33,941 nucleotides of DNA, from assembly GCA_028694405.1 (NCBI GenBank), contig JAQUTM010000003.1, positions 1 through 33,941 on the forward strand, given 5' to 3'. This document shows positions 6,287 through 22,541 of this stretch, piece by piece (the stretch's first letter is position 1; every line of letters starts with the position of its first letter). The position numbers and the translations under genes were made by a program. The notes below the pieces were generated by a model that did no database searches, had not been told where the DNA came from, and worked only from the letters and a program-made list of their open reading frames with translations. This DNA is from Oscillospiraceae bacterium (lineage in GTDB: Bacteria > Bacillota > Clostridia > Oscillospirales > Ruminococcaceae).

Positions 6287-8344
6287 ATGAATAGAAAGTT
6301 AAATTCTATAAAAAATATACTGCGCCGTCGTTGGATGGCTGTTTTAATTGCTGTAGCAGTGGTTCTTTTTATATTTTTAATGCTGTTTACTTCCTTTGAA
6401 AAAATAACCATACAGGCTCTATCACAACTTAACGGAGAGTTTGTAAAACAAGTAGACACAATTTCTGCCACATCTTTGGATATGATTTGGAACTCTGCTA
6501 TGCAGATTTACTACTCCTCTTCTGTACGCATATTGCGCACCAGCAAAGAGATGACCAACGCACAGAGGACGTTAGGACTGCGCGATTTAGGCAATTTTGT
6601 AAGCAGCTGTACTTTTTTAACAAATGCCATGATTTACAATCCTACAATGGATTACATTTTTACGTCTGACAGTGACCACCCCTCTGCACCGGTAGACAAA
6701 TTTTATGATAGCACAGCCGCCTCTCTTTTAACAAATGCAGATACGCGCAGCTTTTCTGTTTCGGAAAAGAAAGTGGGAAGAAACGGAGAGTATTACTCTT
6801 TTGTTTTTTATGAGGCAAATGAGCCTTCCAGCGGTGTGCTTTTATTAAATGTAAGAGCCAAGTGGTACGAAAGTCAGCTGTTGGGTATCTCCTCGGGAGA
6901 CAGCTGCGCAATTTTAGATGCCAGCGGAAAAGCTTTGGCTGTAGGCAGCCACGAAGTGGGACAAGCAGCTGAAGAAATTTGGCCTACGATTATAGAAACC
7001 TGCGAAGAAGACACGCCGGGCTTTATTTTAGATCAACGTACCGCACAAGGGTGGATGTACTGTAAACTGAAAAATTCCGGCTGGCTGTATTTGCGCTCTT
7101 TTAACGCAAATACAATCGTACCATCTCTTACAAAAATGCAAAATATCGTTTTTATTATATTAACTGCGGTTTGCGGCGTTTTGATACTTGGAGCAGCTTA
7201 CACCTTTATAAATCTTTACACACCTTTTAATGCTGTGCGGCAGGCGCTTATTAATGCAGGCGAGACAGCAGGAGAAGTTTCGCAGCAGGTTGATGACCTT
7301 TTAGAACGACAGCGCGAACAGAGGCTTTTAAGGCAGTTTAAACTGATTTTAGAAGGAAAGGCACAAACAGCAGTTCCGTATCCCATATCTCTTATTTTAA
7401 CAGATTGTGCTCAAGTGCAGGAGATACGAGATAAAATAGGGCAAAGTATGGAGCAATTAGCGGTCAACAGCGATTTTGGCAGTGCCATTTTGCTGTTTGG
7501 CGCATCGGAAGAAGAGACAAAGCAGCTTTGTGAGGAAATGGTACAGGCTTTTTCCTGCCACTGTTTTTATGGGGCGCCGCGAACAAACGCTCAAGAGCTT
7601 GTACAGTGCCGAGAAAACTTAAATGAACTTTGGCAAATGCGCTTTTTGTACGTTGGCCGAGATGTTTTACCCGAAAGCACTTTAAACAACCATAATGTAC
7701 CTGGGTTTCAGTCAAAGGACTGCGCTGCGCTGCTTGCCGCTTTACGCAATGGACAGTTGGAAGAAGCACGCTTGTGCTGGCAAAACATATTTTCTATTAT
7801 TCAGCGCTGCCGATTTGCCGATTTGCGCTTTTCGGTGCGTTATTTAATCAAAAGCCTGAACAATCTTTATAAAGAATTTTCAACTGAGCCACTGAATTTG
7901 TCGCCGGATATTATAGATACCATTGAAAATGTAAATCAGGTTACTGCCGCAATGGACGCCGCGTTTGTGCGCATCGTAGATGCGGAGGAAAAAGAGCGCA
8001 TGAAACGGCTGGACCAAATGGCACAGCAGATTATAGAATACATAGAAATGCAATACGCGGATAATTTGCTGTCTGTACAAGAAATTGCCGATAAAATGGG
8101 TATGAATGCGGTATATTTGGGACGTCTTTTTAAAAAAAGCACAGGTATTTCTATTAGCGAAGCCATTAACCGACAACGTGTAGAAAACGCAAAACGCTTA
8201 CTGAGAGAGACAAAGGATTCCATTGAGGAAATTGCACGTCAAGTGGGATTTGATAATGTAAAATATTTTTTTGTGGTGTTTAAAAATATAGTAAACTCTA
8301 CCCCGAAAAAGTATCGAGACGATATAAAAGAGCAGCTTGTTTAA
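6287..8344 (+). CDS. Membrane-anchored AraC-family transcriptional regulator (extracellular Cache-like sensor plus C-terminal AraC HTH)
   Basis: N-terminal TM (MAVLIAVAVVLFIFLMLF), about 250-aa extracytoplasmic segment, second TM (IVFIILTAVCGVLILGAAYTFI), C-terminal double HTH (LLSVQEIADKMGMNAVYLGRLFKKSTGISISEAINRQRVENAKRLL). Confidence 0.9.
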   Translation: MNRKLNSIKNILRRRWMAVLIAVAVVLFIFLMLFTSFEKITIQALSQLNGEFVKQVDTISATSLDMIWNSAMQIYYSSSVRILRTSKEMTNAQRTLGLRDLGNFVSSCTFLTNAMIYNPTMDYIFTSDSDHPSAPVDKFYDSTAASLLTNADTRSFSVSEKKVGRNGEYYSFVFYEANEPSSGVLLLNVRAKWYESQLLGISSGDSCAILDASGKALAVGSHEVGQAAEEIWPTIIETCEEDTPGFILDQRTAQGWMYCKLKNSGWLYLRSFNANTIVPSLTKMQNIVFIILTAVCGVLILGAAYTFINLYTPFNAVRQALINAGETAGEVSQQVDDLLERQREQRLLRQFKLILEGKAQTAVPYPISLILTDCAQVQEIRDKIGQSMEQLAVNSDFGSAILLFGASEEETKQLCEEMVQAFSCHCFYGAPRTNAQELVQCRENLNELWQMRFLYVGRDVLPESTLNNHNVPGFQSKDCAALLAALRNGQLEEARLCWQNIFSIIQRCRFADLRFSVRYLIKSLNNLYKEFSTEPLNLSPDIIDTIENVNQVTAAMDAAFVRIVDAEEKERMKRLDQMAQQIIEYIEMQYADNLLSVQEIADKMGMNAVYLGRLFKKSTGISISEAINRQRVENAKRLLRETKDSIEEIARQVGFDNVKYFFVVFKNIVNSTPKKYRDDIKEQLV

Positions 8345-8377
8345 CAAATTGTTTTGATATTAAAAACGCAACAAAAG

Positions 8378-8425
8378 AAAAAGCCAATTTACTTGCTGTT
8401 TAAAGCAGGTATATTGGCTTTTATT
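8378..8425 (+). terminator. Rho-independent terminator
   Basis: aaaagccaat...gctgtttaaagc...attggcttttatttt: stem-loop plus T-tract after the AraC gene. Confidence 0.75.
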
Positions 8426-8487
8426 TTGTACGAAAAGTGAATATTATAAATAGATACAAGCAAAAAACAAAGTTTTGATACAAAGAG

Positions 8488-9246
8488 TTATATTTTTGTT
8501 GAAACAACAAGAAGTTGAAGAAATTTTGAAGATGATTCTGTTCCGTAGTAGTCTGAAAAAGTGCTCTCCACTTTCATACTACGCGCACTAAAAATTTCTG
8601 CAATTTCTTTTGCGGAATAAAGGCGCGTGGGGTCTCCGGCGGGAATGTCGGGTTTAGAAAGAGGTGCACCATAGGGAATATCGCAGCCGCCAAATAACAT
8701 TCGTCTGCTTGCAGGGTCCCAGTCAAATTGAGATAAGGCAAGCGCCTCTTTGCCGGCTTCCCAGTTAGCACGCGGAAAGTAAAGTTCGGCGTGTTCAGCA
8801 TTGCAAATATCCATAAAATGTTTGCCGCCAACTTTTAATGCATTAGAAATTGTATCAAAAATTTTTAAATTTTCCGCGTCATTTTCTAAGTATCCAACTG
8901 CTCCATCTGCTAAGTTTAAAACTACGTCAAATTCATTTTTATAAGAGAGGTTTCGAATATCTTCCTGTATAAATTGAGCATTTAACCCATTTTCTTTAGC
9001 GGTTTGCGCGGCGTCTTCAATATATATTTTTGTAATATCTACCCCAACAACCCAAAAACCTCTTTTGGCAAAAGAAAGTGCGTGTCGGCCATACCCGCAA
9101 GCCAAATCGAGTATGCGTTCGTTGCCTTTTAACTGAAGTGTGCGGATAATGAAATTAACTTGATTTTCGGTATCTTCTGTCCAAGATTGATTTTTTACAT
9201 CTAAAGACCAACCGTGCTTATACCAATCAGAATTTTTTGCCTTCAT
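8488..9246 (-). CDS. Class I SAM-dependent methyltransferase
   Basis: Motif I ILDLACGYGRHALSFAKRGFWVVGVD; FDVVLNLADGAVGYL. Confidence 0.9.
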   Translation of the reverse strand: MKAKNSDWYKHGWSLDVKNQSWTEDTENQVNFIIRTLQLKGNERILDLACGYGRHALSFAKRGFWVVGVDITKIYIEDAAQTAKENGLNAQFIQEDIRNLSYKNEFDVVLNLADGAVGYLENDAENLKIFDTISNALKVGGKHFMDICNAEHAELYFPRANWEAGKEALALSQFDWDPASRRMLFGGCDIPYGAPLSKPDIPAGDPTRLYSAKEIAEIFSARSMKVESTFSDYYGTESSSKFLQLLVVSTKI

Positions 9247-9777: not shown

Positions 9778-9800
9778 CCACCATGCTAGGAGTGAAAAAA

Positions 9801-10820
9801 ATGATAACGATAACAGATGTAGCAAACCTGGCAGGTGTTTCCAAGGCTACGGTATCCCGTGTATTAAATAATAGTGGTTATGTAAACGAGGATACTCGTA
9901 AACGCGTGGAACAAATAGTAAAAGAAAACCACTATGTGCCCTCCGCCAGTGCCATCAAATTATCTAAACAGGAGTCTACTGCCATTGGCGTAGTCGTACC
10001 CGAAATTGACAACTTGTTTTACGGTGATGTTTTACACGGCATTACCGAAATTGCTGACCAACATGATTTATCTCTGGTGTTTTTTGATACACAAAACAAG
10101 GCAGAAAAAGAGGTACGTGCCTTACATACATTAAGTCAACAACGGGTAAGAGGGTTAATTTTGGCTCCGGCGGTAGATTATTCCCTCAGCTCGCTTGGCA
10201 GAGAACTACGAAAGCAGCTGAAAGCATTGGATATTCCCGTTGTTATCGTCGACCGTGATTCTGAAAATATGCACTGGGACGGCGTTTTTTACGAAAGCTA
10301 CCAAAGCTCGTATCGCGCCGCACAAATTTTACATAAAGCGGGACACACCCGCCTGGGCATTATTACAGGTGATTTGGCACTGAAGATAGGTCGAGACCGT
10401 TTGCAGGGGTTTCGGCAGGGCGTACTGGATAATGGCTTAGAGCTGCGCGATGAGGACATTTTTGAGGGTGACTTTTTAGAGGAACGCGCTTATGAACTAA
10501 GCAAAAAAATGTTTTTAAGCGGAGATTGGCCAACCGCTGTGTATACCTGCAACAACCGCACAAGCTTAGGCTTTTTAAAGGCTGCGCGAGAGTGCAAAAT
10601 ACGCATTGGCAAAGATATTGCCGTAATTGGAAACGACCGCATTGCTATGATTGATCAGTTGGGTATTCCTTTTAGCTGTGTGTATCGAGATAATATTGAA
10701 ATGGGACGCATGGCGTTAAAAATGCTGTTAGAGCGCATTGAAAATCCCACAAGACCACGCAATATTTGTATGATTCCCTATCAGGTTCATCTGTGCGGTA
10801 CTGAAAAACTAAATCCATAA
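9801..10820 (+). CDS. LacI-family transcriptional regulator
   Basis: MITITDVANLAGVSKATVSRVLNNSGYVNEDTRKRVEQ N-terminal HTH, periplasmic-binding-like core. The ATG at 9801 has RBS taggag; the ORF track start at 9783 is less likely. Confidence 0.95.
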   Translation: MITITDVANLAGVSKATVSRVLNNSGYVNEDTRKRVEQIVKENHYVPSASAIKLSKQESTAIGVVVPEIDNLFYGDVLHGITEIADQHDLSLVFFDTQNKAEKEVRALHTLSQQRVRGLILAPAVDYSLSSLGRELRKQLKALDIPVVIVDRDSENMHWDGVFYESYQSSYRAAQILHKAGHTRLGIITGDLALKIGRDRLQGFRQGVLDNGLELRDEDIFEGDFLEERAYELSKKMFLSGDWPTAVYTCNNRTSLGFLKAARECKIRIGKDIAVIGNDRIAMIDQLGIPFSCVYRDNIEMGRMALKMLLERIENPTRPRNICMIPYQVHLCGTEKLNP

Positions 10821-10912: not shown

Positions 10913-10930
10913 TATGTAACCGGTTACATA
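10913..10930 (+). promoter_or_regulatory. LacI-family operator upstream of the sugar catabolic operon
   Basis: TATGTAACCGGTTACATA, perfect 18-bp palindrome, next to a candidate -35 TTGCAC (10884) and an AT-rich -10 region. Confidence 0.75.
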
Positions 10931-11035
10931 AAATAAAATTGGTTTCCTCTTTTGTTAAAACCCTCTGCAAACACCTCTGTAAAATCTTTATATGTAACAG
11001 TGAAACAGTAAATGAAAGCAAGGAGTAGAACGGCA

Positions 11036-12022
11036 ATGATTTATAAGAAAGTGGCAAAAATTAAAGAAGAAATTTCTGCAGTGGGCATTGGATGCTGGAA
11101 CATGGGCGGTGATTGGGATTCTTGCGAAGAGCAAAATTCTATCGACATTATTCACGCGGCTATGGATTTGGGCATCAACTTTTTTGATGTTGCACCTGTA
11201 TACGGCTGGGGTGTATCCGAAACTGTGCTTGGAAAAGCACTGGCGCAGGATAACCGACGCAGCAAGGTGATTATTGCAAGTAAGGGCGGTCTTTTGTGGA
11301 ACGATAAGCACGAGACCACAAACAATCTTTCTAAGGCAAGCCTTTTAAAAGAGATTGATGAAAGCTTACGCCGTCTGCAAACCGATTATATTGATATTTA
11401 CCAAATGCACTGGCCCGACCCAAGCGTGCCTTTGGAAGAAACCGCTGAAGCGCTGCAAATTATGAAGGACAGCGGCAAGATACGCTATGTGGGACTTAGC
11501 AATTTTGCACAGAGCGATGTAGAAAAAATGATGACGATGATAAGTGTAGATTGCCAGCAAAGCTTGTACAATATGCTGGAGCGCAACCCTGCAAGCTATC
11601 ACGGTATTCCCCTTGACTACCGCACCGAGGACGAGGTTTTGCCTACTGTACGCAAATATGGGCAAGCATTTTTACCCTACAGCCCGTTTTTTCAAGGCTT
11701 GTTGGCAGGTAAGTTTTTAAAGGGAATAGATTTTTCAAGCCACGACATTCGCAATGCAAACCCCAAGCTGGTTGGCAAAAACTTTACCGTTTACTTAGAG
11801 GCTGCACGCAAAATAAAAGCGTTGGCAGACGAGATAAACCGCCCCATGAACGAGCTTGCGCTTAACTGGCTGCGGCAAAAGCCGGAGGTTACTTCCATCA
11901 TCGGCGGCGCCTCTACCGTGCAGCAGCTACAAGACAATATTTGCTGTACCACATGGGAAATTACGGACGAACAAATGCAGAAAATAAATGAAATATTAGT
12001 CCCATTTAAATCAATGGGCTAG
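11036..12022 (+). CDS. Aldo/keto reductase family protein
   Basis: VGIGCWNMGGDW, GINFFDVAPVYGWGVSETVLGKAL, YIDIYQMHWPD, IRYVGLSNF. ATG at 11036 preferred (aaggag at 11020) over the track start 11012. Confidence 0.92.
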   Translation: MIYKKVAKIKEEISAVGIGCWNMGGDWDSCEEQNSIDIIHAAMDLGINFFDVAPVYGWGVSETVLGKALAQDNRRSKVIIASKGGLLWNDKHETTNNLSKASLLKEIDESLRRLQTDYIDIYQMHWPDPSVPLEETAEALQIMKDSGKIRYVGLSNFAQSDVEKMMTMISVDCQQSLYNMLERNPASYHGIPLDYRTEDEVLPTVRKYGQAFLPYSPFFQGLLAGKFLKGIDFSSHDIRNANPKLVGKNFTVYLEAARKIKALADEINRPMNELALNWLRQKPEVTSIIGGASTVQQLQDNICCTTWEITDEQMQKINEILVPFKSMG

Positions 12023-12034
12023 GGAGAAAAGAGT

Positions 12035-13552
12035 ATGCCAAGCTATTTAATTGCCCACGACTTGGGTACCTCGGGCGACAAAGCAACCCTTTTTACGACT
12101 GATGGTCAGCTTGTAAAAAGCGTTACATACACATACGATACCCATTTTTTTAACAGCACCTGGGCGGAACAAAACCCCCAAACTTGGTGGCAGGCGCTGT
12201 GTGAAAACAACAGAATACTTTTAAAAGATATTGATGCAAAGCAGGTGGCAGGCGTTGCATTTAGCGGGCAAATGATGGGCTGTGTGGTAGTAGATAAAAA
12301 CGGTACTCCTTTACGTCCCGCCATTATTTGGGCCGACCAACGCAGCCAAAGCCAAGAGGCATATCTGCGCAGCAAAATGGACGAAACCGAATTTTACCAT
12401 ATTACGGGACACAAAATAAGCGCTTCGTACAGCATTGAAAAGTTGATGTGGATACGCGACAACGAGCCTGAAATTTACAGGCAGATATATAAGATGTTGC
12501 AGCCAAAGGACTATTTGATTTATCGTCTTACAGGCAGCTTTGTCACCGACTTTTCTGATGCATCAGGTACCAACTGTTTGGATTTAAACCGTTTAGAGTG
12601 GTCAGACAAAATATTGCAAATTGCCAACATTGACAAAGATTTGCTTACACCGGTACTGCCTTCTACCCATGTGGCAGGTGAGATAACACCCTCCATCGCG
12701 GCAGAATGTGGCTTAGCAGTGGGAACCCCCATTATTATTGGCGGAGGCGATGGTGTTTGTGCGGCGGTAGGCGCCGGTAGTGTACGCAGCGGAGATACGT
12801 TTAATTATCTTGGTTCGTCCTCTTGGGTGGCACTTACAAGCGACACCCCAATTTATGACCCACAGCTTCGCACCTACAACTGGGCACATCTGGTGCCGGG
12901 TAAATATTCTCCCAACGGTACCATGCAGGCAGCAGGCAATTCTTATCACTTTATAAAGAAAACACTCTGCAAGGATTTAGAGCTGATAGCAAAGCAGCAG
13001 GGCGGCAGTGCCTACCGATTGATGGATAACGAAATTGCCGCATCACCCGTTGGCGCAAACGCGCTACTGTATTTACCCTATATTTTAGGTGAGCGCAGCC
13101 CGCGGTGGAATAGTGAGGCACGAGGAGCCTTTATCGGCTTAAAAATGGAGCACACAAGAGGAGATATGCTGCGTGCATGTGTAGAGGGCATATTGATGAA
13201 CCTATGTGTGATACTGGACGTGTTTCGCAAGGAGATGGATATTACCTCTATAAACGTAATCGGCGGCCTTGCAAAGGGAGACCCGGTACGCCATGCCTTG
13301 GCTGACATCTACGGCGTAAAAGCAAACCGGTTAAACTGGCTAGATGAGGCAACCTCAATGGGAGCTGCTGTTGCGGCGGGTGTTGGAGCAGGCGTGTTGG
13401 CAGACTTTACGGCGATTGATAAATTTATTCAGGTAGATGATGTTATCGAGCCAAACTGGGAAAACCACAAAAAATATAATGAGTTAAAGGCAATTTTTGA
13501 TGAAAGTTATTTTGCCTTGCTAAATACATATCACAATTTGGCGAAGTTTTAA
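12035..13552 (+). CDS. FGGY-family carbohydrate kinase (xylulokinase-like)
   Basis: LIAHDLGTSGDKATLF, AGVAFSGQMMGCVVVD, PAIIWADQRS, IIIGGGDGVCAAVGAGSV, INVIGGLAKGDPVRHALADIYG. Confidence 0.93.
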   Translation: MPSYLIAHDLGTSGDKATLFTTDGQLVKSVTYTYDTHFFNSTWAEQNPQTWWQALCENNRILLKDIDAKQVAGVAFSGQMMGCVVVDKNGTPLRPAIIWADQRSQSQEAYLRSKMDETEFYHITGHKISASYSIEKLMWIRDNEPEIYRQIYKMLQPKDYLIYRLTGSFVTDFSDASGTNCLDLNRLEWSDKILQIANIDKDLLTPVLPSTHVAGEITPSIAAECGLAVGTPIIIGGGDGVCAAVGAGSVRSGDTFNYLGSSSWVALTSDTPIYDPQLRTYNWAHLVPGKYSPNGTMQAAGNSYHFIKKTLCKDLELIAKQQGGSAYRLMDNEIAASPVGANALLYLPYILGERSPRWNSEARGAFIGLKMEHTRGDMLRACVEGILMNLCVILDVFRKEMDITSINVIGGLAKGDPVRHALADIYGVKANRLNWLDEATSMGAAVAAGVGAGVLADFTAIDKFIQVDDVIEPNWENHKKYNELKAIFDESYFALLNTYHNLAKF

Positions 13553-13569: not shown

Positions 13570-14265
13570 ATGGACATTAAAACCTTAACCGCCGCGCAGC
13601 TTGCCGGCATGATTGACCAAACCCTGCTAAAACCCTATGTAACACTAGACGAATTGAAGGCACACTGTGAGGGTGCTGCTAAGTACAAATTTAAAACAGT
13701 GGCAATTAACAATGCACCGGTACCTTTTTGCAAAAAGGTGTTAGAGGGCTCGGGTGTGCTTTGCGATGCCGCAGTAAGCTTTCCCTTGGGACAGTGCACC
13801 ATTGAGACAAAAGTGTTTGAAACTATTGATGTAATCGAAAAAGGCGCAGGCGAGGTAGACTATGTAGTAAATCTGGTAGAGCTGAAAAGCGGCAACTGGG
13901 ACTATGTAGAAGAAGAGATGACCAGAATTGTGCAGGCGTGCAGCGAGCGCAATATTACCAGTAAAGTTATTTTTGAAAACTGCTATCTAACAGATGATGA
14001 AAAAAGACATCTTTGCGAAATTGCACTGCGTGTAAAGCCAACCTTTATCAAAACCTCTACAGGGTTTGGCACAGGCGGCGCTACAATAGAAGATGTAAAG
14101 CTGATGAAAGAATGTGTGGGCGACAAGCTTAAAATTAAAGCAGCAGGCGGCGTGCGTACAGCTGAGCAGGCACTGGCTATGATTGAGGCAGGCGCAGACC
14201 GTATTGGCACAAGCTGCGGCATCGAAATTGTAGAAGGCTTTACGGCAATGCAGCATCAAAGATAG
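13570..14265 (+). CDS. deoC: DeoC-family class I aldolase (deoxyribose-phosphate aldolase-like)
   Basis: IDQTLLKPYVT, GEVDYVVN, FIKTSTGFGTGGAT (Schiff-base Lys motif), IKAAGGVRT; RBS aaaggag. Confidence 0.88.
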   Translation: MDIKTLTAAQLAGMIDQTLLKPYVTLDELKAHCEGAAKYKFKTVAINNAPVPFCKKVLEGSGVLCDAAVSFPLGQCTIETKVFETIDVIEKGAGEVDYVVNLVELKSGNWDYVEEEMTRIVQACSERNITSKVIFENCYLTDDEKRHLCEIALRVKPTFIKTSTGFGTGGATIEDVKLMKECVGDKLKIKAAGGVRTAEQALAMIEAGADRIGTSCGIEIVEGFTAMQHQR

Positions 14266-14279
14266 GAGATGCAAACCGC

Positions 14280-15566
14280 ATGAAATACGGTATCTATTAT
14301 GCCTACTGGGAAAAAGAATGGGGCGCCGATTATACGGTGTATGTAAAAAAGGCAGCAGAGCTGGGATTTGATATTTTAGAAATTTCTTGTGCAGGATTGT
14401 GCGACATGACAGCACAGCAAATTGAACAGCTTTGGCTTTGCAGCCGTGAGTACAACATACAGCTAACAGCCGGATACGGCCCTACAGCACAAGAAAATCT
14501 GGCATCACAAGATGCGGACATTGTGCAAAATGCCTTTCGTTTTTGGCAAAAAACCTTTGCGGTGCTAAAGGCGTTACATATCACACAGGTGGGCGGCGGC
14601 TTGTACACCTATTGGCCAGCCAACTACGCTGCCCCTATTGATAAGCAGGGCGATTTACAGCGCAGTATTCAGAATATGAAAAAGCTTGCAAAAATGGCAA
14701 AGCAATACAACATTACCCTTTGCATGGAGGTGCTTAATCGGCACGAAGGATACTTAATTAACACATGTAAAGAGTGTGTGGAATATGTAAAAGCCGTAGA
14801 CGAGCCCAACGTAAAGGTAATGCTGGATACCTATCATATGAATATGGAGGAAGATGACCTTTACGATGCTATTATTATGGCAAAAGGGCATTTGGGTCAC
14901 GTTCATGTGGGAGAAAACAATCGCCGTTTGCCGGGGCAAGGAAAACTTATCGATTGGCAAAGCATTGCCGCGGCACTCCACAAAATCGGCTATGACGGCA
15001 CTGTGGTAATGGAGCCGTTTGTGCTAAGCGGTGGGCAGGTTGGTACGGATATTCGAGTTTGGCGAAATTTGATAGACAGTCCCTCGCAAGCGCGTTTAGA
15101 TGCAGATGCAGCAAAATCGGTGCAATTTTTACGCAGTGTTTTTGAAGATTTCACCTGCGCCGAACAGCAGCTGCCTATGAAGAATCTTGCACATGTAGGA
15201 CTGTTTATTACAGATATGCAGCAGACGGTAGCGTTTTATACCTCGCTGCTTCAGTTTAACGTTATTTGGCAAAACACAAATCCCTCACCGCAGGGTGATA
15301 TACAGGTAACATTTGTACAAAACGGAAATTTGATTTTGGAACTGGTACAGTTTCCTGTGCCGCAGCAGCGAGGCGACGGTTGGTTTGACCATGTGGCAAT
15401 TAAGGTAAAAAACTTAGACACGGTAATACAAAAGCTTCAGCAAAAAGGAATAACCTTCGAAGAAGGCACACGAGAAGATGCACCGCAGGTATTTGAAAAC
15501 GGCTCTCGCTGGGTACTGTTTCGCGGCCCCGATAATGAGCATATAGAGCTGAATGAGGTACTGTAA
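14280..15566 (+). CDS. D-psicose/D-tagatose 3-epimerase-like TIM barrel fused to a C-terminal VOC/glyoxalase domain
   Basis: N-terminus MKYGIYYAYWEKEWGADY, MEVLNRHE, VKVMLDTYHMNMEE, GHVHVGENNRRLPGQG, GTVVMEPFV; C-terminal about 129 aa with HVGLFITDMQQTVAFYTSLL, NLILELVQF, FDHVAIKV, GPDNEHIELNEV. Confidence 0.9.
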   Translation: MKYGIYYAYWEKEWGADYTVYVKKAAELGFDILEISCAGLCDMTAQQIEQLWLCSREYNIQLTAGYGPTAQENLASQDADIVQNAFRFWQKTFAVLKALHITQVGGGLYTYWPANYAAPIDKQGDLQRSIQNMKKLAKMAKQYNITLCMEVLNRHEGYLINTCKECVEYVKAVDEPNVKVMLDTYHMNMEEDDLYDAIIMAKGHLGHVHVGENNRRLPGQGKLIDWQSIAAALHKIGYDGTVVMEPFVLSGGQVGTDIRVWRNLIDSPSQARLDADAAKSVQFLRSVFEDFTCAEQQLPMKNLAHVGLFITDMQQTVAFYTSLLQFNVIWQNTNPSPQGDIQVTFVQNGNLILELVQFPVPQQRGDGWFDHVAIKVKNLDTVIQKLQQKGITFEEGTREDAPQVFENGSRWVLFRGPDNEHIELNEVL

Positions 15567-15626
15567 TTAAGGTAGTAGATGCCCGTCCGGGCATTACAAA
15601 TGATAATAATAAAGGAGAAACGACTT

Positions 15627-16709
15627 ATGAAAAAAGCACTTGCACTTTTGCTTTCCCTGGCTATGGCGCTAAGCTTGGCAGCTTGTGGCAACTCTGGTAG
15701 CACCGCAGCTTCCACACCCGCTTCTACAGCATCCGATACTGCACAAAGCACCGCCCAATCAAAAAATGTTAATGTAACATGGGTATCCTGCTCTACAGAA
15801 TCAGAATTTTGGCAATATCAAGAGCTTGGCATCCGTGCTGCCGCCAAGGATATGGAAGCCAAACACGGCATTACCGTAACGGTTTCTACAGTTGGCCCTG
15901 CAACCGAGGCGGAAACCGAGGCATACATTCGCGCATTTGAAAATGCTATCGCCTCCAAACCCGATGCTATCATCAGTGCAACTCAAGTACCAGATTCTAC
16001 ACGCAACGTGTCTAAAGAAGCCATGAACCAAGGTATTGTTGTAAACTTTACAAACTGCGGCCTTGAAGTTATGGATTCTACCGAATTTGCCGATTGCTAC
16101 AACCAATTTTACACAACCGTTAGTGCAGACGTTGGCGATTTGGCAGGCAAAATTATGCTAGAGCAGCTTGAGGCAGCCGGTATTCCCTTAGAGGGCGTAA
16201 TTGCAATGGAATTTTCTAACGTAAACCCTGCCCTGCAACCTCGTATGGATAACTTTAAAGCTTATGTTGAGGCAAAAGCACCCGGTATTAAAGTATTGGA
16301 TACGCTTTACAACAACAACAGCTTAGAGCAGGCACAGGCTGACATTGAAAACCAAATTGCAACACACGGCGCTAAATTGATTGGTATCTACGGTGCAAAT
16401 AACATCTCCGTTGACGGCATTGCTCTTGCAGTTGAAAACGCCGGTATTGCCGATAAAGTAGTAACCATCGGTGTTGACTCTGACCCCGTTGAAATTGCCG
16501 CTTTAGAGGCAGGTAATCTGGATTGCATTATTGTTCAAGATGCTTACGGCCAAGGCTATGCTTCTATGGTAAACGCCATTGAGACCATTATGACAGGTAA
16601 AAACCCCGAGAGTGCCCAAAAAATTGCTATGGCACCCGAAGCTGTAACCACAGCTAATATGAAAGAGGCAAAATATGCCGCTTTACTAGACCCCACTCTG
16701 CTGGCATAA
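15627..16709 (+). CDS. Ribose-type ABC transporter substrate-binding lipoprotein
   Basis: Lipobox SLAACG; periplasmic-binding-protein fold region (DAIISATQVPDSTRNVSKEAMNQGI). ATG at 15627 with aaaggag RBS preferred over 15579. Confidence 0.9.
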   Translation: MKKALALLLSLAMALSLAACGNSGSTAASTPASTASDTAQSTAQSKNVNVTWVSCSTESEFWQYQELGIRAAAKDMEAKHGITVTVSTVGPATEAETEAYIRAFENAIASKPDAIISATQVPDSTRNVSKEAMNQGIVVNFTNCGLEVMDSTEFADCYNQFYTTVSADVGDLAGKIMLEQLEAAGIPLEGVIAMEFSNVNPALQPRMDNFKAYVEAKAPGIKVLDTLYNNNSLEQAQADIENQIATHGAKLIGIYGANNISVDGIALAVENAGIADKVVTIGVDSDPVEIAALEAGNLDCIIVQDAYGQGYASMVNAIETIMTGKNPESAQKIAMAPEAVTTANMKEAKYAALLDPTLLA

Positions 16710-16760: not shown

Positions 16761-16861
16761 TAAATAGAGAGGCAACCTATTTTAAAGTGCTGTTTAGGGC
16801 TGTCGCCATAATCTCTTATAAAACGCACCCGATAGGTATTACAGAAAGGAAAGAGCAACGT

Positions 16862-18400
16862 ATGGATGACAATATCCTGTTGAAAATTGAGGGTGTCGTA
16901 AAAACCTATCCGGGTGTTCAAGCGCTCAAGGGCATTACGACAACAATTAAGCAGGGCGAAGTGCGTGCCCTGGTTGGAGAAAACGGTGCAGGTAAATCAA
17001 CCCTTATTAAATGTATTATGGGCGTAGAAACACCTACCGAAGGAAAGGTTGAAATAAACTGTGACGGCGTGTGGAAAAGTGTCAAAAATGCGGTAGAGGC
17101 AAAGGCATTGGGAATGCACGCAAACTATCAAAATGTAAACATAGCAAAAAATTTAAGCATAGCCGAAAACTATTATCTGGGCCGCCTGCCAAAAACAAAG
17201 CTGGGCACGGTGGACTGGACCACAATGTACGAAGACAGTCAGAAGGTTATCGACAAGTTTCAGCTAGGGGTAAACCCTACCGCCACCATTGCCTCCCTGC
17301 CTGTGGCATTGCAGGCTATGGTAACCATCAGTAAAATATCGGTAAACGAAAATATTCGTCTGGTTATTTTTGATGAGCCAACGGCTTTGCTGGAAAATGA
17401 TAAGGTCGAAACTCTGTTTCACTATATTAAAGAACTAAAACAAGCGGGCGTAAGCATTATTTACATTTCTCATCGTCTGGAAGAGATTATGGAAATATGC
17501 GATACTGTTACCATTATGAAAGACGGCACATACGTGGAGACAAAAGATGTTGCCGAGGTTGATAAGGATTATCTTATTTCCAAAATGGTTGGGCGTGATA
17601 TGGCGGATATTTATAATATACAACGCCAAAACCCGGGACAGGAATTGCTGCGTGTAGAAAACTTGAGTAACTCTAATTTTACAGATGTAAATTTTTCTTT
17701 ACACAAGGGCGAAATTTTAAGCTTTTTTGGATTAGTTGGCGCAGGGCGCAGCGAGGTGATGCGGGCAATATTCGGTGTAGACAAAATTACCGCAGGCAAA
17801 GTGTATGTAAAGGGTAAAGAGGTACACTACAAATCACCTAAAGAAGCCATGATAGATGGCATTGGCTTTTTAACCGAGGACCGTCGAACCGACGGTTTGG
17901 CTTTACCGCAAAGCGTAGAACTTAACACCAATATGTACTCTTACGACATGATTAGCAAGCTGGGTGTTATTGATTTAAAAAAAGAAAAGCAGCGAGCTGA
18001 AGAGTATCGTACAAAAATAGCAGTAAAAACGCCAAGCGTAAAGCAGTGTGTAAATAACCTATCGGGCGGCAACCAGCAAAAAGTTGTAATTGCAAAGCTG
18101 CTGTGTCGTAATCCGGATATTTTAATTTTTGACGAGCCAACAGTTGGTGTAGACGTTGGTGCAAAAGACGAAATTTTTAAAATTATCGAAACACTTACAA
18201 AACAGGGCAAGGGTGTTATTATTGTTTCTTCCTATTTGCCGGAGGCAATGGGTCTTGCTGACCGCATGATTGTTATGGCGGAGGGACATATAGCAGGTAC
18301 TTTTGACAATGAGCAGATGAAGCAGGTAGAGGAAGAAGACGTATTGCGCATTGCCTCTACTATATACGACAGCGAAAACGTTTCGGCGGAGGTAAAGTAA
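16862..18400 (+). CDS. Sugar ABC transporter ATPase with two nucleotide-binding domains (RbsA/MglA-like)
   Basis: LVGENGAGKSTLIK, VIFDEPTALL, second half LSGGNQQKVVIAKLL, LIFDEPTVGVDVGAK. ATG at 16862 with aaagga RBS preferred over 16787. Confidence 0.94.
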   Translation: MDDNILLKIEGVVKTYPGVQALKGITTTIKQGEVRALVGENGAGKSTLIKCIMGVETPTEGKVEINCDGVWKSVKNAVEAKALGMHANYQNVNIAKNLSIAENYYLGRLPKTKLGTVDWTTMYEDSQKVIDKFQLGVNPTATIASLPVALQAMVTISKISVNENIRLVIFDEPTALLENDKVETLFHYIKELKQAGVSIIYISHRLEEIMEICDTVTIMKDGTYVETKDVAEVDKDYLISKMVGRDMADIYNIQRQNPGQELLRVENLSNSNFTDVNFSLHKGEILSFFGLVGAGRSEVMRAIFGVDKITAGKVYVKGKEVHYKSPKEAMIDGIGFLTEDRRTDGLALPQSVELNTNMYSYDMISKLGVIDLKKEKQRAEEYRTKIAVKTPSVKQCVNNLSGGNQQKVVIAKLLCRNPDILIFDEPTVGVDVGAKDEIFKIIETLTKQGKGVIIVSSYLPEAMGLADRMIVMAEGHIAGTFDNEQMKQVEEEDVLRIASTIYDSENVSAEVK

Positions 18401-18403
18401 GTT

Positions 18404-19390
18404 ATGAGTCAGTCTACAAAAAATTTGGCGGAACGCAAAAGGTCTGCCGAGCTGAAAAAATTATTGATGCGCACCGAAATTTCAATGGTACTTATTATTG
18501 TATTGTTGTTTTTGGCCGCTACCTTTGGTACAGAAAACTTTTTAAGTGCATATAATCTTACTAACATTTTAAAACAGTGCGCGATTATCGGTGTTATCTC
18601 TGTTGCACAAACCTACATTATCATCACCGGCGGCATAGATATTAGCTGTGGTGCTATAGTGGGTATGTCTACCTTAATGGTGGCAATGGGTCAGGCACGC
18701 TGGGGTATGGGCGTTTTAGGCTCTATGGTTGTAGCGCTTGTTGTAGCCATTGTATGCGGCCTGTTTAATGCAGTGTTAATTCACGAATTTAACGTTCCCG
18801 CATTTGTTGCAACTTTGGGCACTCAAACCATTTTGCGCGGCCTAATCAAGGTTATTTCTAATGGCGGTACCGTTTCGGGGCTAAGTGCCAAGTTTTCCGC
18901 ATTTGCCAGCGGTAGCACCTTTATGATTCCCAATCTTGCTCTTATATGGTTTTTAATTGCCATTGTCGGATTTTTAATTTTGAAATATACAGTGTTTGGA
19001 CGCAATTTGTTTGTTTTGGGCAGCGGCTCCGAGGTTGCTAAACTAAATGGTATATCTATTCGCAAAACTACCTATGCAGCATATGCATTTGCCGGCCTTA
19101 TGTATGGCGTTGCAGGCATTATGCTTGCCGCACGCATTAACTCGGCCATTCCTACAGCAGGTGAGGGATACGAGACAAACGCCATTGCCGCAAGCGTATT
19201 GGGTGGTGCTTCCTTAGCCGGCGGTCAGGGCTCTATTGCAGGCACATTGCTGGGTACTATGCTTATTATTTTAATTGATAACGTTGGTACACAGTTTGGT
19301 ATTCACTCCTTTGTTATGCAGGTTATCACCGGCTGCGTAATTGTAATTGCTATTGTAGTAGACCAAGTTAAAAAACGCAAAAACCGCTAA
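18404..19390 (+). CDS. Sugar ABC transporter permease (RbsC-like)
   Basis: Hydrophobic; TYIIITGGIDISCGAIVGMS, FVATLGTQTILRG, SVLGGASLAGGQGSIAGTLLG. Confidence 0.94.
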   Translation: MSQSTKNLAERKRSAELKKLLMRTEISMVLIIVLLFLAATFGTENFLSAYNLTNILKQCAIIGVISVAQTYIIITGGIDISCGAIVGMSTLMVAMGQARWGMGVLGSMVVALVVAIVCGLFNAVLIHEFNVPAFVATLGTQTILRGLIKVISNGGTVSGLSAKFSAFASGSTFMIPNLALIWFLIAIVGFLILKYTVFGRNLFVLGSGSEVAKLNGISIRKTTYAAYAFAGLMYGVAGIMLAARINSAIPTAGEGYETNAIAASVLGGASLAGGQGSIAGTLLGTMLIILIDNVGTQFGIHSFVMQVITGCVIVIAIVVDQVKKRKNR

Positions 19391-20152: not shown

Positions 20153-21673
20153 TTATTTATATAAAAGCTGCTGAAAGTAGGATATTTTTTCTTCATCTTT
20201 CAGTGGTGCGGATTCCATTTTCTGATTGAAATAGTACATCATTTTGCGGTCGGCTTCAAATTTATCCCACGGTGTGCTGTCCGGCAGAGAAAACCCTTTA
20301 TTTGGGTTGCCGTTTGCAATAAAGTTACACCACATGGTGTGCATTTGCTCGGCAACAAATCCGTCATATTCACCTTCCGTTAAGCCGGAAGCGGGAATGG
20401 TGTCAAAGGTGTAAAGAATATCTACGGCATGATGCGCGCCCAATTCTTTCATAGGATAGTTTCCGTCAGGCATAAAGTCAAACTGATAGCCGTATACGGT
20501 GTTTCCTTGGTTTGCAAGCTCTTGCATCATTTTAATAGTGCCTGCTTTAAAATAGGAGTAGGTTACAAGGTCGGGGATAAGCGCAAGACCCTCAAGACCT
20601 TGATTTTTATAGTAATCTTTAACTTCTTGTGCTTTTTCTTTAAACACTTGGTCAATAAACCACTCGGCACCTTCTGGGGTAGAGGTCTCTGAAAGGAAAA
20701 CCATGCCTTCGTTTTGATTAAAGCCCATGAGATATTCTGCTTTATTATACTCTCCTTGCTTTAGCGCTTCTTCCGGGTTTTTGGGAAGCACCGCTCCATC
20801 TAGGGTTGGCCAAAAAGCGAGAGGCGCCGATACCGTTACATCAGATGAGAAAAAGCCTGTTTCCCATAGCTGATAGGCATCACACTGACGCAATTTTTCC
20901 AAGCCCTCAGGAGAATCATCAGCTCCAAATTTTTCGGCAAATTTTCTAGAGGCTTCAATCGATGCTTCAAGGTTTGCTTGTGTATATGGCATAGACACTT
21001 TGTTGGAAAGTAAGTTTCCGCTTTGCATAACGGCTCTTTTAAAAAGCCCTTTTGCTTTGGGGGACATAACCAAATTGGTTACAGAGAACGAGCCGGCAGA
21101 TTCACCGCCAATAGTAATTTGCTCGGGGTCACCGCCAAATGCAGCAATATTTTCTTTTACCCATGTCAGTGCCGCAATTTGGTCCAGCGTACCCCAGTTA
21201 CCTGTGGTACCATATTGTTTCATCAGGGTTTCCAAGGCCAAAAAGCCCATTGCGCCCAGACGATAGTTTATTGTAACTAAAATAACATCTTTATTTACAA
21301 ATTCTGTACCATCGTAATAATTCATGGTGCCACAGCCATTAAAATAACCACCGCCATGAATCCAGAAAAATACAGGATATTTTTTGCCTTCGGATTTTTC
21401 GGGTGCCCATATATTAAGATACAGGCAATCCTCGCTGGGTTTGGTATTGACGAGAATTGTTTCCATTTGTGTTGCACTGGAACCAAATTCTAAACAGTCT
21501 TTTACATCGTCCCAAGGCTCCATCTTTTGTGGTGGTGTAAATCTTAAATTGCCAATGGGCGGTTTGGCGTAGGGTACGCCTTTAAATACAGCAACACCGG
21601 ACGCAACGGTGCCTCTTATCTTTCCCTGTTTTGTATCTACAATCATTGTCTGATTTGTTTTTTTGTTATCCAT
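20153..21673 (-). CDS. Type-B carboxylesterase (alpha/beta hydrolase; para-nitrobenzyl esterase-like)
   Basis: VDTKQGKIRGT, FKGVPYAKPPIGNLRF, EDCLYLNIWAP, FWIHGGGY, ITIGGESAGSFSV nucleophile elbow. Internal ATG at 21673 has aaagga RBS; ORF track start is 21706. Confidence 0.93.
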   Translation of the reverse strand: MDNKKTNQTMIVDTKQGKIRGTVASGVAVFKGVPYAKPPIGNLRFTPPQKMEPWDDVKDCLEFGSSATQMETILVNTKPSEDCLYLNIWAPEKSEGKKYPVFFWIHGGGYFNGCGTMNYYDGTEFVNKDVILVTINYRLGAMGFLALETLMKQYGTTGNWGTLDQIAALTWVKENIAAFGGDPEQITIGGESAGSFSVTNLVMSPKAKGLFKRAVMQSGNLLSNKVSMPYTQANLEASIEASRKFAEKFGADDSPEGLEKLRQCDAYQLWETGFFSSDVTVSAPLAFWPTLDGAVLPKNPEEALKQGEYNKAEYLMGFNQNEGMVFLSETSTPEGAEWFIDQVFKEKAQEVKDYYKNQGLEGLALIPDLVTYSYFKAGTIKMMQELANQGNTVYGYQFDFMPDGNYPMKELGAHHAVDILYTFDTIPASGLTEGEYDGFVAEQMHTMWCNFIANGNPNKGFSLPDSTPWDKFEADRKMMYYFNQKMESAPLKDEEKISYFQQLLYK

Positions 21674-21731
21674 ATACTTTGTGCTTTCCTTTTCTTTAAC
21701 TGACATATTTTAATGTATGGCTTGTATGTTA

Positions 21732-22541
21732 TTAAAAACACACAAAGCCACCGTCTACGGGAACTGTGGTTCCGGTCATATTACTGGCCTCATCACTTGC
21801 AAGAAACAAAATGACATCTGATACTTCTGTCGCGGCTGCCACTCGTGCCTGTGCCGATACAATTTTTGGCGGACATATCGGTTTATCGGACGGAGTAGTT
21901 TCTTTTGCTTGGGCAGCTTTTTTGGTTGAAAGAAATGCAAGTGCTTCTTGATACATTGGAGTGTCGGTTGTTCCCGGATTAACGGCGTTAACCCGAATAC
22001 CGTATTTGGCATAGTCCATAGCCATATTTTTCGTAAGTCCACTTAACGCATGCTTGGAAGTTACATAGGCAGAGTGACCGGGAAATCCCGTTAATCCTGC
22101 AACTGAGGATACATTGACAACGCAAGAGGCTCCGCCTTGTTCAATCATATGAGCTAATGCGTAATGAGAGCAAAAAAATGCGCTATAAACATTACAGGCC
22201 ATAACTTCCATAAACATCTGTGTACCCATTGTGTGTACCGGTGCAGGAATTCCTGTAATGCCGGCATTGTTGATGAGAACATCAATTCGCCCGTACTTAT
22301 TCCAAGCAGTATCAATTAACTCCTTGCAATTTTCCTCGGCTGAGAGATCTAAAATTAAAAAAGTCACATCACTTGTGATTTTCATTAGCTTCTCAAGGGC
22401 TGTTTTACTCATTTCTTCCTTACGGTCAGCCAAAACCAGCTTTGCCCCTTCTTCAGCGGCTCTGTGCGCCGTAGCAAATCCAATGCCACCGGCGGCTCCG
22501 GTTATGACAAACACTTTGTCTTTAAATCGATTTTTAATTAT
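21732..22541 (-). CDS. Short-chain dehydrogenase/reductase (SDR) with apparent non-canonical start
   Basis: VFVITGAAGGIG, NNAG, YVTSK, VNPGTTDTPM. Homology-like N-terminus extends upstream of the track's GTG (22514) to an ATA codon at 22541, 7 nt from GGGAGG. Confidence 0.85.
   Translation of the reverse strand: MIKNRFKDKVFVITGAAGGIGFATAHRAAEEGAKLVLADRKEEMSKTALEKLMKITSDVTFLILDLSAEENCKELIDTAWNKYGRIDVLINNAGITGIPAPVHTMGTQMFMEVMACNVYSAFFCSHYALAHMIEQGGASCVVNVSSVAGLTGFPGHSAYVTSKHALSGLTKNMAMDYAKYGIRVNAVNPGTTDTPMYQEALAFLSTKKAAQAKETTPSDKPICPPKIVSAQARVAAATEVSDVILFLASDEASNMTGTTVPVDGGFVCF

Follow-up and report, generated by a model that had tools for sequence, protein, structure and literature searches.

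The analysed window, a 33,941-nucleotide stretch of contig JAQUTM010000003.1 from an Oscillospiraceae bacterium, contains an operon in which genes for a LacI-family regulator, an aldo/keto reductase, an FGGY sugar kinase, a DeoC-type aldolase, a ketose 3-epimerase + VOC fusion protein, and the binding protein, ATPase and permease of an ABC importer lie on one strand. Identities in the following list refer to two related clusters, L036 from Firmicutes bacterium HGW-Firmicutes-16 and L084 from Eubacteriales S21M_St_13.

9783-10820, forward strand: LacI-family regulator (Pfam LacI; 76% identical orthologue in L036)
10913-10930, forward strand: LacI-type operator, a perfect palindrome, TATGTAACCGGTTACATA, found by palindrome scan upstream of the operon, before the aldo/keto reductase gene
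11012-12022, forward strand: aldo/keto reductase (Pfam Aldo_ket_red; 76% identical in L036, 71% in L084)
12035-13552, forward strand: FGGY sugar kinase, xylulokinase-type (TIGR01312, 388 bits, cut-off 380; 79% identical in L036, 52% in L084)
13570-14265, forward strand: DeoC-type aldolase (TIGR00126, 228 bits)
14280-15566, forward strand: fusion gene, ketose 3-epimerase + VOC, a single open reading frame of 428 amino acids (Pfam, NCBIfam; full-length homologue in L036)
14280-15146, forward strand: epimerase domain, residues 1-289 (NF051856; PDB 7x7w, 3vni, 3vnk)
15147-15176, forward strand: linker of about 10 residues, 290-299 (modelled at low confidence; free-standing relatives end near residue 289)
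15177-15563, forward strand: VOC domain, residues 300-428 (Pfam Glyoxalase; AlphaFold2 VOC fold)
15579-16709, forward strand: sugar-binding lipoprotein of an ABC importer (Peripla_BP_4)
16787-18400, forward strand: double ATPase subunit of a ribose/arabinose-type ABC importer (ABC_tran x2; AraG/RbsA relatives, below cut-off)
18404-19390, forward strand: ABC permease (BPD_transp_2)

A near-identical operator palindrome occupies the same place in L036 (5314-5329), where the operon is syntenic at 60-80% identity and lacks DeoC (LacI, aldo/keto reductase, FGGY kinase, fusion and SBP-ABC-permease genes). It continues there with genes for a dehydrogenase-like protein (recognised by eye), a GPI-type cupin, a phospho-furanose-lactonase relative, a KDPG aldolase and a hydroxyacid dehydrogenase. 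The window DeoC-type aldolase had no match in L036 or L084. A lactonase-like PTE, a KDPG aldolase and a PfkB kinase are common to L036 and L084 and hint at a branch of Entner-Doudoroff type, but in the window DeoC stands in their place, and the gene content therefore does not fix the substrate. Pfam and NCBIfam recognised none of the usual aldose-ketose isomerases in the operon, which leaves room for one. The aldo/keto reductase, used as an anchor for further clusters across 392 genomes of the class, recovered only its own genome. Downstream of the operon, on the reverse strand, a carboxylesterase-family gene (PF00135) lies beside a short-chain dehydrogenase-like gene (20153-22514).

The fusion gene runs from ATG to TAA over 428 codons with zero internal stops. 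Pfam places AP_endonuc_2 at residues 22-261 (E = 1.9e-42) and Glyoxalase at residues 303-423 (E = 7.3e-14; 52.6 bits, cut-off 20.6), the latter agreeing with an earlier note on this DNA, which had put the start of the VOC unit near residue 300 (15177). A frameshift or assembly artefact, named beforehand in that note as grounds for refutation, is ruled out by the same full-length fusion in the independent L036 genome and by a codon-position composition with no break across the epimerase/VOC junction. An internal start yielding a separate VOC protein was also rejected: the window has a methionine at position 300, but L036 has none there, and no ribosome-binding site is evident upstream. AlphaFold2 modelled the full-length protein with a pLDDT of 80 and a disordered linker (pLDDT <50 at 293-303), which is 5 residues shorter in the L036 fusion. 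Among the best 50 matches listed, the full-length model matched epimerase-type barrels only, and the VOC domain was for this reason modelled alone.

Residues 1-288 are spanned by the NCBIfam model for D-psicose 3-epimerase (NF051856) at 434 bits (cut-off 300), placing this half in the family and bearing out the proposal that an epimerase occupies residues 1 to about 290. Its PDB relatives are 7x7w, 3vni and 3vnk (E down to 9e-95), with 49% identity over 288 columns to the Clostridium cellulolyticum enzyme 3vni. The metal ligands E150, D183, H209 and E245 and the substrate residues E156, H186 and R215, with roles as given in PMC3639893, are invariant in 21 sequences. The N-terminal half thus shares all metal and substrate residues with the D-allulose (psicose)/D-tagatose 3-epimerases (3vni, 7x7w, NF051856), although the known enzymes end at about 290 residues and the matched solved ones have no VOC domain. 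Family membership and residues together strongly suggest a ketose 3-epimerase that would epimerise free ketoses at C3.

The VOC half belongs to the VOC superfamily (PF00903) by family score and by its predicted paired beta-alpha-beta3 fold. Modelled alone, it adopts a VOC fold (pLDDT 83) whose best PDB match is E. coli Ni-glyoxalase I (1f9z; TM 0.74-0.76). The four ligands that the earlier note had picked out correspond to H305, E354, H371 and E423, which match the H/E/H/E positions of 1f9z, the structure on which the ligand comparison rests. The set is present in both fused copies, whose VOC halves are 59% identical, and in the aligned free-standing VOC relatives. No NCBIfam equivalog model reached its cut-off on the VOC half, including the glyoxalase I models TIGR00068 (23.9 bits, cut-off 120) and NF050074 (28.2 bits, cut-off 165) and the methylmalonyl-CoA epimerase model TIGR03081 (29.6 bits, cut-off 115). 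Glyoxalase I (1f9z) and the glyoxalase-like proteins SMU1112c and YaeR have the fold and ligand positions in common with the window VOC, but identity is about 25% and scores fall far under the family cut-offs; unlike them, the window VOC is fused to a sugar enzyme. Glutathione synthesis was not found with a GshF-type model. Methylmalonyl-CoA epimerase, a VOC-fold enzyme and distant sequence match, shows by precedent that the fold can support epimerisation by proton transfer, but no CoA pathway lies near the window VOC.

The ketose 3-epimerase + VOC architecture is real and rare. A scan of genome contigs from 85,462 species, which used exact 8-residue patterns and is thus insensitive and not exhaustive, yielded one more full-length fusion, the 63% identical protein of L036, and none beyond it. 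Full-protein searches in genomes of the same family and order and in relatives found no other fusions. At most other epimerase loci the enzyme stands alone and ends at about residue 289, and most of the ketose 3-epimerase loci found are without any related VOC. In the epimerase tree, the window protein and L036 cluster with the free-standing L037 and L045, a grouping in line with a single fusion event. The fusion is not recent, since both genomes retain it although the two proteins have come to differ at 37% of positions. The L037 gene (2482-3357), a close free-standing relative, has a glycogen synthase-like gene on one side and a glycogen phosphorylase-like gene on the other.

Epimerase and VOC genes also meet unfused in sugar clusters. 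L084 encodes them as separate genes (8001-8876 and 12518-12919), the epimerase falling on another branch of the tree. L167 (genome G590) has the order rbs-type ABC importer, three DeoC-like aldolases, VOC, epimerase-like gene and second VOC. This epimerase-like gene (249 bits to the D-psicose 3-epimerase model, just under the cut-off of 300) is followed by one TAA, 12 nt and the in-frame second VOC, and residues 1-427 of the fusion protein align to the L167 pair with one stop between. Against the fused VOC, those of L084 and L167 reach only 25-26% identity (25% for L084). A close relative of L167, G1088, is without the second VOC, and the epimerase-VOC neighbourhood is missing there. Pairing of the two is thus recurrent and not obligatory, and the fusion unites two activities that otherwise occur side by side in sugar operons.

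The three DeoC-family aldolase genes of L167 (3013-5134) are consecutive in the sugar ABC operon; the first passes TIGR00126 and the other two were recognised by eye. In the 3.0-Mb genome G590 (L149, L151, L165, L167), ketose 3-epimerase homologues number at least five and there are several VOC relatives, with some in different sugar operons. Another ketose 3-epimerase cluster, with no VOC (L085, 1-5882; L086, 4269-13614), comprises an FGGY kinase, the epimerase, a 472-amino-acid fucose/arabinose-isomerase-like protein, a DeoC aldolase 62-65% identical to that of the window, and a large glycoside-hydrolase-2-like protein.

Close relatives of the VOC half occur in 26 of 392 Clostridia genomes, its own genome counted. 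The closest free VOC (47% identical) has as neighbours a zinc dehydrogenase, a class II aldolase, a ketohexokinase, a transketolase and a fucose-isomerase-like protein. In L115 and L116 the VOC relative lies between a class II aldolase and a PfkB kinase, in L153 near a dehydrogenase and a kinase, and in L148, L154, L156 and L165 in ABC sugar operons (neighbours in these last five recognised by eye). The surroundings of the branch formed by L157-L164 and L166 are unrelated, and L150 and L151, two of the three closest VOC relatives, both adjoin another kind of ABC transporter. Thus only about one in two related VOC genes has recognisable sugar genes beside it, a tie that is frequent and not universal. 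Three VOC relatives (L155, 1609-2160; L160, 6573-7106; L164, 6505-7059) carry a cysteine-rich tail of about 40 residues with a metal-binding look.

The nearest known architecture is that of the two-domain dehydroshikimate dehydratases QuiC and QsuB, in which a sugar-isomerase-like barrel is joined to an HPPD-like module for which a stabilising role has been proposed (PMC9324987); the precedent claimed in the earlier note is thus sound. QuiC/QsuB (5HMQ) and the window fusion both place a sugar-isomerase-like TIM barrel before a VOC-superfamily module in a single chain. They differ in barrel family, the window protein scoring 23.3 bits against the QuiC model NF042435 (cut-off 1200), and whereas QuiC/QsuB have a larger HPPD-like C-terminal half and act in an aromatic-acid pathway, the window fusion has a single glyoxalase-sized VOC and lies in a sugar operon. 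The literature searched contained no description of a VOC-bearing ketose 3-epimerase; the earlier note, too, knew of none that had been characterised.

From the gene context we infer that the VOC domain probably participates in the pathway of the epimerase, and the unfused epimerase and VOC genes in the L084 and L167 sugar clusters make two activities of one pathway the best reading. On this basis we favour, with about even confidence, a bifunctional enzyme of an operon for sugar import and catabolism under LacI control, coupling C3 ketose epimerisation to a second, metal-assisted proton transfer in the VOC half. The metal-dependent TIM barrel would, by way of an enediolate, swap the C3 configuration of a free ketose, and the epimerised ketose would then be phosphorylated by the adjacent FGGY kinase. 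The VOC domain, on a short flexible linker, would bind a divalent metal via its four ligands. Judged from the retained ligands and the gene context, its most likely reaction would be another proton transfer of the enediolate type, an aldose-ketose isomerisation or an epimerisation of a sugar in the same pathway, either ahead of the kinase step or following it. The nature of this reaction and the actual substrate are speculative. The fusion itself probably arose through loss of the stop codon between adjacent epimerase and VOC genes. The metal site of glyoxalase I is formed between two subunits; speculatively, the epimerase oligomer could hold VOC domains in pairs to give a GlxI-like active site. 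More tentatively, the VOC may be a new kind of sugar isomerase or epimerase, a glyoxalase-fold enzyme of Clostridia catabolic operons with free or phosphorylated sugars as substrates; the fusion would then be a two-step sugar-interconverting enzyme.

A structural VOC domain, which would stabilise or pair epimerase subunits or bind sugar without catalysis, is somewhat unlikely. Such a role is the one proposed for the HPPD-like half of the two-domain dehydroshikimate dehydratases (PMC9324987), and a dimerising add-on is plausible because most known epimerases of the family are tetramers (PMC3639893), but both fused copies retain all four ligands despite the divergence of the VOC halves, and in L084 and L167 VOC is a separate gene and no appendage of an epimerase. 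We consider it improbable that the VOC detoxifies methylglyoxal or a pathway-derived sugar dicarbonyl in the manner of a glyoxalase. Its top structural match is Ni-glyoxalase I, with an equal ligand set, and the best NCBIfam relative of the neighbouring aldo/keto reductase is the methylglyoxal reductase YdjG, below cut-off; yet the glyoxalase I models score far under their cut-offs, a general detoxifier has no need of fusion to an epimerase, and glyoxalase I requires a thiol adduct, whereas a GshF-type glutathione-synthesis model found no match in the window's own genome (86% complete; the search covered this thiol only). Of the two options raised in the earlier note, a bifunctional enzyme on successive intermediates gains from the unfused pairs in L084 and L167, and dicarbonyl detoxification is left weak by the missing GshF-type match. 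Least probable of all is an accidental fusion without functional consequence, the halves acting as if apart and the VOC perhaps on something unrelated: linker length is variable and, as the L167 pair illustrates, one stop loss would be enough, but an idle domain would have decayed, and the fusion is too old to be a recent accident.

Allulose/tagatose 3-epimerases have been much studied for rare-sugar production, although their natural pathways are poorly known. The retention of the fusion in two genomes and the occurrence of VOC relatives beside aldolases and ketose kinases point to a VOC reaction in sugar catabolism.
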